A stretch of 51,875 bases of DNA, taken from NCBI RefSeq assembly GCF_002980595.1, contig NZ_PVLQ01000022.1, positions 1 to 51,875 of the forward strand, read 5' to 3'. The position numbers and the translations under genes are program-made. Source of the stretch: Malikia granosa. GTDB lineage: Bacteria > Pseudomonadota > Gammaproteobacteria > Burkholderiales > Burkholderiaceae_C. Below, piece by piece: positions 48,561 to 51,875 of the stretch (positions are counted from its first letter, which is position 1; each line of letters starts with the position of its first letter). Below the pieces are notes generated by a model. It did no database searches, was not told where the DNA came from, and worked only from the letters and a program-made list of their open reading frames with translations.

Positions 48561-51500
48561 TCAGCCGCGTGCCAGCACCGGCGCCAGCGCGCGACCGGTG
48601 TGGCTGCCCAGCCGCACCAGCTCCTCGGGCGTGGCCGCCGCGACGACTCGGCCACCGCCATCGCCGCCCTCGGGTCCCAGGTCCAGCACCCAGTCGGCCT
48701 CGGCGATCAGGTCGAGGTCATGCTCGATCACGACCACGCTGTGGCCGCCATCGACCAGGCGGTGCAGCACGCGGATCAGCTTGTCGACATCGGCCATGTG
48801 CAGGCCGACCGTCGGCTCGTCGAGCACATAGAGGGTATGCGGCGCCTTCTGGCCGCGCCGCCCGACCTCGTCGCGCACCTTGGACAGTTCGGTCACCAGC
48901 TTGATGCGCTGCGCCTCGCCGCCCGACAGGGTCGGCGAGGGCTGGCCCAGCGTCAGGTAGCCGAGGCCGACATCCTTGAGCAGTTGCAAGGGCTGCGCGA
49001 TCGAGGGCATGGAGGCGAAGAAGCCGACCGCCTCGTCGACCTCCATCTGCAGCACCTCGCCGATGCTTTTTCCCCGCCAGCTGACCGCCAGTGTCTCGGG
49101 ATTGAAGCGGGCGCCATGGCAGGCCTCGCAGGGCACCTTGACGTCGGGCAGGAAGCTCATCGCGATGGTGCGCACGCCCTGCCCTTCGCAGCTGTGGCAG
49201 CGGCCCTCGCCGGTGTTGAAGCTGAAGCGGCCCGGGCCGTAGCCACGCGCCTTGGCCTCGAGCGTCTCGGCGTAGAGCTTGCGGATCTGGTCCCAGAAAC
49301 CGATGTAGGTGGCGGGACAGCTGCGCGGGGTCTTGCCGATCGGGGTCTGGTCGACCTCGAGCACGCGCTCGACATGGCCGTGGCCGCTCAAGCCGGCACA
49401 ACCCTGCCAGACCGGCAGCTGGCCGGCGGCCAGCGCCTCGCGCCCGGCCTTGGTCGAGCTCTGGGTCACGGCGGTGGCGACGTTGGCCAGCAGCACCTCG
49501 CGCGCGAAGGTCGACTTGCCCGAGCCGCTGACGCCCGTGACCGCGACCAGGCGCTTGAGCGGGATCGCCGCCGTCACGTCCTTGAGGTTGTGCAGGTTCG
49601 CGCGCTCGACGGTCAGCCAGTGCAGCTTGTCGGGCAGCGAAGTGGTGGCGGGTTCCAGCTGCTTTTTCTTGCGGGTGGATTTCTTGGCGGCGGGCCGCGA
49701 GGCGGCGGCGGCTTCCTCATGCTGCGAGCAGAAATCGTCAGCCGCCGCCCCCTCGCGCCCCTGTGGCGCTGTGCTTTCGGCATGAATGCTGAAATCGCTG
49801 GATGCCGATGCTGCAACCGTGACACCGCCACTCGCCTTCCCCCGAGTCGTCGAGTCGGGCGGGGTGCCGGGCGACGATTTCTGCTCGCAGCATGAGGAGC
49901 CCGGCACCCCGCCCGGCTCGGCGACGAGCGCCTGAGCCTGAGCCTGAGCCTGAGCTGCGGCTGCCGCGAAAGCTTCCTCGGTGACGGGCCGGCGCGGCTG
50001 CAGCGGATGCCGCATCGCGTGCAGCAGGTAGCGGCCGGTCTGCGAATCCTGCGCCGCCATCACGTCATCGACCGTGCCCTCGGCCACCAGCCGGCCGCCA
50101 CGGATGCCCGCGCTCGGGCCGATGTCGATCACATGGTCGGCGCGGCGTATCGTGTCCTCATCATGCTCGACCACCACCAGCGTGTTGCCCTTGCTGCCCA
50201 GCTTGTGCAGCGCATCGAGCAGGATCTGGTTGTCGCGCGCATGCAGGCCGATGGTCGGCTCGTCGAGCACATAGCAGACCCCCTGCAGATTGCTGCCGAG
50301 CTGGGCCGCCAGCCGGATGCGCTGGGCCTCGCCGCCGCTCAGCGTCGGCGCGCCGCGATCCAGCGTCAAATAGCCCAGGCCGACTTCCTCCAGGAACTCG
50401 AGCCGGCCCTGGATCTCGGGCAGCAGGTCGCGCGCGATCTCGGCCTCGCGCGGGCTCAGGGACGCATCGGCCTGCAGCTGCTGCAACCAGCCACGCAGGT
50501 CGAGCACGCTGCGATGCGCCAGCTCGGCGATGCCGAGGCCCTGGAAACGCACTGCGCGCGCGGTCGGGTTCAGCCGCGTGCCGCCGCAGCTGGAACAGGC
50601 CTGGTCGGCGACCTCCTCGAGTTCGGGCTCGGCGAAGCTCTGCTCGCGGCCCTTCTCCTTGTCGTCGCGCACCGAGTCGTCCATCAGCTGGCGCTGCGCC
50701 TTGGTCAGGGCGACTCCGGTACCGACGCAGTCCGGGCACCAGCCATGCTTGCTGTTGTAGGAGAACAGTCTCGGGTCGAGCTCGGCATAGCTGCTCGCGC
50801 AGACCGGGCAGGCGCGCAAGGTCGAATAGACCTGCAGCCGGCCGATGCCCAGCGTCGAGCGGCCATCAGCCAGCGCTTGCTCCAGGCCATCGACCCCGGC
50901 CAGCAGATGCAACACCCCCTTGCCGAGCTCGAGCGCCTGGGTCATGGCGCGGCGCAGTTCGGACTCGGCGCCGGGCTCGACGCGCAGGCGAGCCAGCGGC
51001 AGCTCGATGGTGTGCTCCTTGAAGCGGTCGATGCGCGGGAAGCCGGTGGTCGGCAGGAATTCGCCATCGACCCGCAGATGAGTGTGGCCGCGCGGCCGGG
51101 CCCAGTCGGCCAGCTCGGTGTAGACGCCCTTGCGGTTGAGCACCAGCGGCGCCAGGAACTGCACCTGCTGGCCGCGGCACTGGGTCATGATCTGGGCCAG
51201 GATGCTGTCGGGCTGCTGCGGCTGGACCGGGGTACCGTCATACACACAATGCTGGGTGCCGAGCTTGACGTAGAGCAGGCGCAGGAAATGCCAGACCTCG
51301 GTCGTGGTGCCGACGGTGGACTTGCGCCCGCCGCGGGAGAGGCGCTGCTCGATCGCGACCGTCGGCGGGATGCCGTAGACCGCATCGACCTCGGGCCGGC
51401 CCGCCGGCTGCACGATCGAGCGCGCATAGGCGTTGAGGCTCTCGAGGTAGCGCCGCTGTCCCTCGTTGAACAGGATGTCGAAGGCGAGCGTGGACTTGCC

Positions 51501-51770
51501 GGAGCCGCTGACGCCGGTGATGACGTTGAACCTGCCGCGCGGAATGTCGACGCTCAGTCCCTTGAGGTTGTGCTCGCGGGCGTTGACGATGCGGATGGCA
51601 TTGGCGTGCGGGCTGGCCTTTGCTGTCACTTTGTCGGGGCCAGCGGATACGGCGGCCTCATGCTGCGAGCAGGACTCAGCACCCGCGCCGTCGGGCCGAA
51701 CGGGGCTGGCGGACTCCTCATGCTGCGAGCAGAAATCGTCGCCCGCCAGGCCCGCTCGACCCTCCTCCAT
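48561..51770 (-). CDS. uvrA: UvrA-family excinuclease ATPase with repeat-derived insertions
   Basis: At least 1069 residues, against about 940 for E. coli UvrA. ABC half 1 has Walker A GVSGSGKS (86-93), the UvrB-contact region, a zinc motif CPVCASSY...[17 protein letters not shown] and [12 protein letters not shown]. Half 2 has [16 protein letters not shown]...[14 protein letters not shown] and a second LSGGEAQRI. It recognises damaged DNA. Extra sequence comes from a 47-residue N-terminal extension with DDFCSQHE and CSQHE and a linker at about 600-715 with [18 protein letters not shown] and DDFCSQHE. All of these coincide with copies of one DNA repeat. The zinc-hook insertion domain is shorter than usual. 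No stop codon occurs upstream of 51770 to the window end, so the true start may lie beyond it; GTG at 51629 is another option. Confidence 0.9.
49692..49761 (-). repeat. Palindromic element copy C (in uvrA)
   Basis: The 26-nt core at 49714-49739 reads GACGATTTCTGCTCGCAGCA then TGAGGA on the minus strand. Arms at 49692-49713 and 49740-49761 pair at 20 of 22 positions. In uvrA it encodes DDFCSQHEE. Confidence 0.8.
49777..49808 (-). repeat. Degenerate palindromic element copy F (in uvrA)
   Basis: Arms TCGGCAT (49777-49783) and ATGCCGA (49802-49808) flank a shortened core in which CGATTTC joins AGCAT directly, as if the inner hairpin were deleted. It encodes SDFSIHAES, aligned with [10 protein letters not shown] of the full copies. 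Confidence 0.5.
49846..49925 (+). repeat. Palindromic element copy B (in uvrA, opposite orientation)
   Basis: The 26-nt core at 49873-49898 is identical to copies C and E but on the plus strand, antisense to uvrA. Arms of 27 nt (49846-49872, 49899-49925) pair throughout with two G-T wobbles; the inner 17 bp are perfect. Read through by uvrA as SSCCEQKSS. Confidence 0.88.
49931..49954. repeat. Hexanucleotide tandem repeat in uvrA
   Basis: CCTGAG repeated four times, encoding alternating Ala-Gln in the UvrA central linker. It lies 5 bp from the arm of element copy B. Unit length keeps the frame if the number changes. Confidence 0.85.
51655..51680 (-). repeat. Diverged element core copy D (uvrA N-terminal extension)
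   Basis: A core with about five differences from the common 26 nt; the inner CTGC-TC-GCAG hairpin and CATGAGG are kept. Arms are not convincingly complementary. Encodes AESCSQHEA. Confidence 0.6.
51693..51762 (-). repeat. Palindromic element copy E (uvrA N-terminal extension)
   Basis: The 26-nt core at 51715-51740 is identical to copy C. Flanking arms (51693-51714, 51741-51762) pair at about 17 of 22 positions, so the stem is decayed. Encodes DDFCSQHEE just after the ATG at 51770. Confidence 0.7.
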
Positions 51771-51807
51771 CCGGTTGGCAGTCGCAGCGTCAGTGCCAGA
51801 GCTCGCC

Positions 51808-51875
51808 GGGGCCAGGGGCTGGCCGGGTGACGATTTTGGCTTGCCGTATGAGGAACCCGGCCAGCCCCTGGCCCC
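51808..51875 (+). repeat. Palindromic element copy A (upstream of uvrA ATG, at window end)
   Basis: A perfect 21-bp inverted repeat (51808-51828 with 51855-51875) encloses a 26-nt variant core, GACGATTTTGGCTTGCCGTA then TGAGGA. The right arm ends at the last base of the window and may continue. Read in the uvrA frame it is open and gives SSYGKPKSSPG, parallel to [11 protein letters not shown] of copy B. Confidence 0.88.

Follow-up and report, generated by a model that had tools for sequence, protein, structure and literature searches.

Hairpins with a constant internal loop lie in frame in uvrA and other genes of Malikia and related Comamonadaceae

The uvrA reading frame of a Malikia contig carries four hairpins, each with a 26-nt core between arms of about 24 bp, arranged as two inverted pairs. 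Copies of these hairpins are found in Malikia and in other Comamonadaceae and hardly occur beyond them. Judged from sequence comparison, they are probably non-autonomous miniature palindromic elements of this family that work like REPs/REPINs and Rickettsia palindromic elements.

Hairpins in the uvrA Reading Frame

The window, meaning the whole 51,875-nt stretch of DNA analysed here, corresponds to contig C78 in a draft genome of 3.83 Mb (lineage Malikia, Comamonadaceae). Its uvrA frame is open at the window end (Table 1). Another UvrA frame, which carries hairpins too, is cut off by the end of contig C141, and the window end and the C141 end both fall inside a hairpin with an identical variant core. 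Most of the best UvrA matches in the family lie within open frames of about 1,800–2,200 aa. Because of this frame length and the variant-core hairpin shared by the two contig ends, the two frames are probably one double-length gene cut by assembly, with C141 holding the N-terminal half. The hairpins seem to break assemblies, since several contigs end or start within a copy (window 51805–51875 and the starts of G004:C93 and G001:C32).

Table 1. Features of the uvrA reading frame (window coordinates; strand of the core for hairpins)
Feature	Position	Strand	Remarks
uvrA reading frame	48561..51875	-	open at window end; probably the C-terminal half of a UvrA of double length
Hairpin, forward relative to uvrA	49690..49763	-	core 49714-49739; peptide DDFCSQHEE
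Hairpin, reverse relative to uvrA	49849..49922	+	core 49873-49898; peptide SSCCEQKSS
Hairpin, forward relative to uvrA	51691..51764	-	core 51715-51740
Hairpin, reverse relative to uvrA	51805..51875	+	variant core 51829-51854 (apical TGG/CCG); right arm cut by window end
Inverted pair	49690..49922		in the linker that joins the two ATPase modules of this half of UvrA; 159 nt from one core start to the other
Inverted pair	51691..51875		in the inferred linker joining the UvrA halves; 114 nt from one core start to the other
Diverged core fragment, no paired arms	51656..51677	-	located by covariance model and local score

The cores at 49714, 49873 and 51715 are identical, and 100 dinucleotide shuffles of the window gave none. 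Watson–Crick pairs in the fitted arms numbered 21/21 for the hairpin at 51829, 25/27 plus two T-G pairs at 49873, 20/22 at 49714, and 18/22 at 51715. DNA folding gave z-scores of -7.4, -6.0, -2.7, and -7.3 for the four hairpins. The covariance model found all four with E values from 1.5e-18 to 5.2e-15, three of them being members of its own training set (A1). A sequence-only reading of this DNA had reported the three identical cores, the variant core at 51829, complementary arms (21/21, 27/27 with two wobbles, and 20/22), and copies in both orientations within an open frame, all of which held on analysis. It had also listed a diverged core near 51655. This is a real core fragment, with a local score of 18 against a maximum of 11.8 in 400 random window segments and a model score of 21.3 bits (E 0.013), but it has no proper arms. 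An "internally deleted" copy near 49784 was dropped, as its score of 9.0 lay below the 95% point of the null (9.8).

Anatomy and Covariation

Searching the collected loci for the core with at most 3 mismatches gave 137 distinct copies. We kept the 124 with at least 12 Watson–Crick arm pairs and dropped the 13 whose fitted arms had fewer. The unit is a hairpin, mostly of 74–83 nt, built of three parts: a roughly 24-bp outer stem, an internal loop that stays constant, and an exchangeable apical stem-loop. Fitted arm length peaked at 24 (58 of the 137 copies). The arms share a G-rich 5′ and C-rich 3′ consensus, with conserved pairs beside the core and at the 24-bp end, so the earlier description of arms of unrelated sequence was too strong.

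Covariation was scored on 58 copies (set A1, hand-picked for spread from 120 windows), in which 95.5% of cells were paired and 25 of 27 pairs had changes on both sides. The covariation score was 0.772, compared with 0.193 for shuffled and at most 0.129 for slid alignments. Across 119 unique windows, covariation is seen at core pairs 9-18 and 10-17, GA stands at 4-23 in 113 windows and AC in the other 6, and 3-24, 5-22, 6-21, 11-16, and 12-15 are invariant, a constancy partly built in since most of these positions, though not 11-16, belong to the search pattern. The internal loop is non-Watson–Crick, opposing CGATTT to YATGAGG between two covarying helices; tandem G.A pairs flanking a C-G pair are possible there. 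The covariance model also found relatives whose apical stem-loop was replaced. In 173 hairpins with the loop motif, the apical part measured 10 nt in 113, 12 nt in 36, 19 nt in 10, 15 nt in 9, and another length in 5. What stays constant is therefore the internal loop, and the apical hairpin is exchangeable. Neighbours less than 400 nt apart stood reverse-then-forward in 24 of 24 cases after the arm filter, which had removed two tandem neighbours with poorly paired arms.

Distribution

The core recurs, and the earlier reading's own refuting condition, a core confined to this place and orthologous UvrA proteins with the same peptides, does not apply: the window's genome holds it in 7 places with at most 3 mismatches, and it is found in other Comamonadaceae and in four unrelated gene families. 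The covariance model gave 14 matches in the same genome and 9–19 in each of five Malikia genomes; two loci (L229 and L234) were left out of the judged model matches. A degenerate core with at most 2 mismatches was present in 18 of 299 family genomes and 12 of 141 genera, its matches in G042 and G212 being chance when judged by their arms, while the reversed core, used as a control, matched in three genomes. At E ≤ 1e-4 the covariance model reached 28 of 150 family genomes and 27 of 141 genera, partly through other types such as the second core described below. At order level (E 1e-5) it matched 5 of 300 genomes, and at class level 2 of 274, both within the family. The only order-level match outside the family, G360, is a GTAG..CTAC palindrome and not this hairpin. 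That genome has three near-identical palindromes of this kind (L284, L286, and L288), whose loop CGATTTCGCTCGCGGCATG recalls the core.

A scan of named records returned 72 stretches, whose titles give Comamonadaceae names, Burkholderiales-type names or unspecific bins, the exceptions being one Streptomyces record and one bin labelled Chitinophaga pinensis, which is evidently mislabelled. A blastn search of phages and plasmids with one 111-nt copy gave no match, and neither did the strict core pattern in viral contigs. A looser pattern hit 106 viral stretches; the 80 examined had at most 14 of 24 Watson–Crick arm pairs, and the hits were taken as chance.

Host Genes and Reading Frame

The 124 well-paired copies of the reported type were divided among UvrA (78), formate dehydrogenase alpha (14), the error-prone polymerase DnaE2 (9), LeuS (6), and other places (17), counts that do not equal independent insertions, as many in-gene sites are common to several species or genera. 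In all four proteins the copies sit in linkers or loops. A single core reading frame was used in 107 of 107 in-gene copies, which for about seven independent sites would arise by chance an estimated once in 700. The proposal of an RPE-like repeat of this lineage, inserted in frame in genes, agrees with this shared frame across four unrelated gene families. Of the 17 copies outside these families, those at the loci viewed were intergenic, mostly after a 3′ end. The sister type with a 12-nt apical part, to which most of the 23 matches of G099 belong, looked mostly intergenic in the loci viewed, and inverted pairs lie between genes in G099. The bias towards UvrA is therefore a feature of the reported core type. 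The spacer of one DnaE2 pair (L049) consists of many CCAAAA-type repeats in a row, which encode QN repeats.

Occupied and Empty Sites

Comparison of occupied and empty orthologous sites points to insertion of whole hairpins. LeuS and UvrA orthologues without a copy have short loops at these places and lack the peptides, and we infer from this that whole hairpins were inserted there. The LeuS loop measured 138–144 nt in six carriers, whereas among 30 family loci it measured 57–63 nt in 22 and was longer in 8; the occupied loop thus exceeds the empty one by about one whole hairpin. In five of the 8 longer loops a palindrome stood well above those of 30 codon shuffles, and one loop was marginal; against this, the carrier L077 does not exceed its own codon shuffles by the same gapless measure. 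UvrA linker 1 could be parsed in 26 of 30 loci; six had a strong palindrome, four of these belonging to the present hairpin family. The suggestion that the arms arose by inverted duplication of the target was rejected: the protein sites differ by about a whole hairpin, and the arms partly follow a consensus. Two intergenic sites of Malikia, one behind ppsR and one before htpG, were too diverged to give a clean nucleotide-level empty site or target duplication, the G000 gene-end stretch in the first alignment being evidently misplaced.

Hairpin pairs were also copied as a whole. UvrA L058 and DnaE2 L115, from different genomes, share hairpins, spacer, and tails at 80–81% identity over 318–328 nt, and within genome G228 a UvrA copy matches two DnaE2 copies at 89.5% and 91.1% over 124 nt. 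With all these parts shared between UvrA and DnaE2, the pair is a composite unit that was copied between unrelated genes.

Other palindromes were seen at the same places. The LeuS loop of G005, G049, and G012 holds them in L152, L153 (marginal), and L162, as if it were a landing place for several palindrome families. A second core, GACGAATCGGAGC..GACTGAGGA, lies in paired arms in LeuS of the window's own genome and of G058 (L148 and L149), with a related core in L232. UvrA of G064 (L184) has an unrelated long palindrome in linker 1.

Change in Place

We compared six orthologous UvrA sites across up to five Malikia species. Stem pairs were doubly changed and still paired in 95 cases, singly changed and paired in 57, and broken in 33, all counted over overlapping pairwise comparisons. 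The earlier reading had held that arms which differ between copies and pair within each copy mean that the structure, and not the arm sequence, is kept or created at insertion. The differences between copies come at least partly from in-step change after insertion. Between species, all six sites differ in the apical 9-18 pair; at one of them the species have identical arms and differ in core positions alone. Among core matches, this pair is G-C in 15 of 15 from G001 and G002 and in 0 of 27 from G000, G003, and G004, counts in which a few matches may be one element at two contig ends. Conversion among the copies would account for such a pattern, and so would their co-evolution with a factor. 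The 12-nt-apical type is off this rule: G000 has G-C there at C24, which argues against genome-wide homogenisation.

Candidate Mechanism and Alternatives

Under the preferred reading as miniature palindromic elements, a putative trans-acting enzyme, perhaps an HuH-type transposase, would recognise the internal loop in the single-stranded hairpin form. The analogy is with the TnpA-REP of E. coli, which depends on mispaired bases within the stem of the REP (PMC8266576). Insertions would persist where they lie in frame in a disordered linker or in intergenic DNA at 3′ gene ends. The arms may be kept complementary by template switching between them during replication, by selection for the fold, or by both; template switching can maintain stems (PMC8794818). 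Y1_Tnp genes were present in 12 of 12 carriers searched, and no copy lay near any of their 16 genes. The low copy number in Malikia and the many in-gene sites common to species and genera count against an element. Given this sharing of sites, most in-gene copies may be old. The apical change at all UvrA sites with unchanged arms is not explained by simple transposition. A bolder version, which we consider rather doubtful, would make the constant mispaired loop a recognition module co-evolving with a trans-acting factor in each lineage, with the UvrA, DnaE2, and LeuS copies retained and rewritten in place. The hairpins would then form a novel class of DNA elements that are recognised by their structure, evolve in concert, are linked to repair genes and have an enzyme of their own.

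The species-specific 9-18 pair is also what would be expected if a host protein bound the internal loop, as cruciform, single-stranded DNA, or RNA, and the uvrA, dnaE2, and leuS copies were kept by selection, for example to couple the repair genes with DNA structure. An excess of repair genes among the hosts is seen for these hairpins as well as for other REP families (PMC3733652). Yet most family genomes have these orthologues without copies, copies stand in both orientations, the 12-nt-apical copies break the 9-18 rule, and linkers tolerate anything, so we think host function unlikely. Compensated changes and the occupation of the same UvrA sites in several genera would equally suit relics of ancient palindrome insertions, inherited vertically and paired only through correction of one arm from the other by template switching. 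The internal loop, however, is also a quasipalindrome and has not been corrected into perfect pairs, and spacer and tails are common to UvrA and DnaE2 copies. This origin appears improbable.

Strong covariation and the frequent position of intergenic copies after 3′ ends would fit a structured cis-regulatory RNA, whereas both orientations occur within the same genes. Over the hairpins of six loci, Rfam returned only microRNA models far below gathering score, and such an RNA is very improbable. A DUF805 RNA match just at gathering score lies beside one copy (L013:1350-1418). Ordinary protein evolution or local duplication in UvrA could account for the one reading frame of all in-gene copies, but the peptide core varies (FCSQ, LCSH, FGSP, and LRSR, from translated apical variants) with pairing kept, intergenic copies and copies in unrelated proteins occur as well, and copy-free orthologues lack the peptides. 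We give this explanation almost no weight.

Comparison with Known Systems

In-frame palindromes in some of these genes are already known. GTAG and CGTC REPs/REPINs of other bacteria are small palindromes, mostly inverted dimers, found near 3′ gene ends and in frame in uvrA, DnaE2, and tRNA-synthetase genes (PMC3733652), and our close neighbours that passed the arm filter are likewise all inverted. Their stems, though, are 5–13 bp with a GTAG or CGTC tag (PMC3733652), as against a variable 24-bp outer stem around a constant internal loop here. No conserved GTAG was found in flanks or stem of the Comamonadaceae hairpins, and none of the 16 RAYT/Y1_Tnp loci from 12 carriers had a copy beside it. 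The main text of PMC3733652 does not mention "Comamonad" or "Rhodoferax", and we found no earlier description of these hairpins, their core letters, or their peptides in the open-access literature.

The other strand of the core, CCTCAT..AAATCGTC, resembles CGTC REPs, which may begin with CCTC followed by AT pairs, have 4–5-nt loops, and have no known transposase (PMC3733652). Here there is no 8–9-bp stem and no conserved CCA tail, the tag only resembles CGTC, the apical stem has 3 bp with a 4-nt loop, and a 24-bp outer stem is added; the likeness may be chance. With the E. coli REP, the hairpins share an imperfect palindrome in which, for that REP, mispaired bases matter for recognition (PMC8266576), and they differ in a consensus without the GTAG tag and in having no transposase gene beside a copy. 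Rickettsia palindromic elements likewise insert in frame in unrelated protein genes (PMC10969869), a likeness in mode; those elements are about 150 bp (PMC10969869) and belong to another class of the phylum.

What sets the Comamonadaceae hairpins apart is their unusual build, a constant internal loop between drifting arms. Unrelated palindromic repeats of distant bacteria have come to lie in frame in a shared set of genes, namely those for uvrA, DnaE2, and tRNA synthetases (PMC3733652). With occupied and empty sites at orthologous positions, an inverted anatomy, and changes that run in step within a genome, the present hairpins make it testable what recognises such structures, how palindrome arms are kept complementary, and why such elements accumulate in repair genes.
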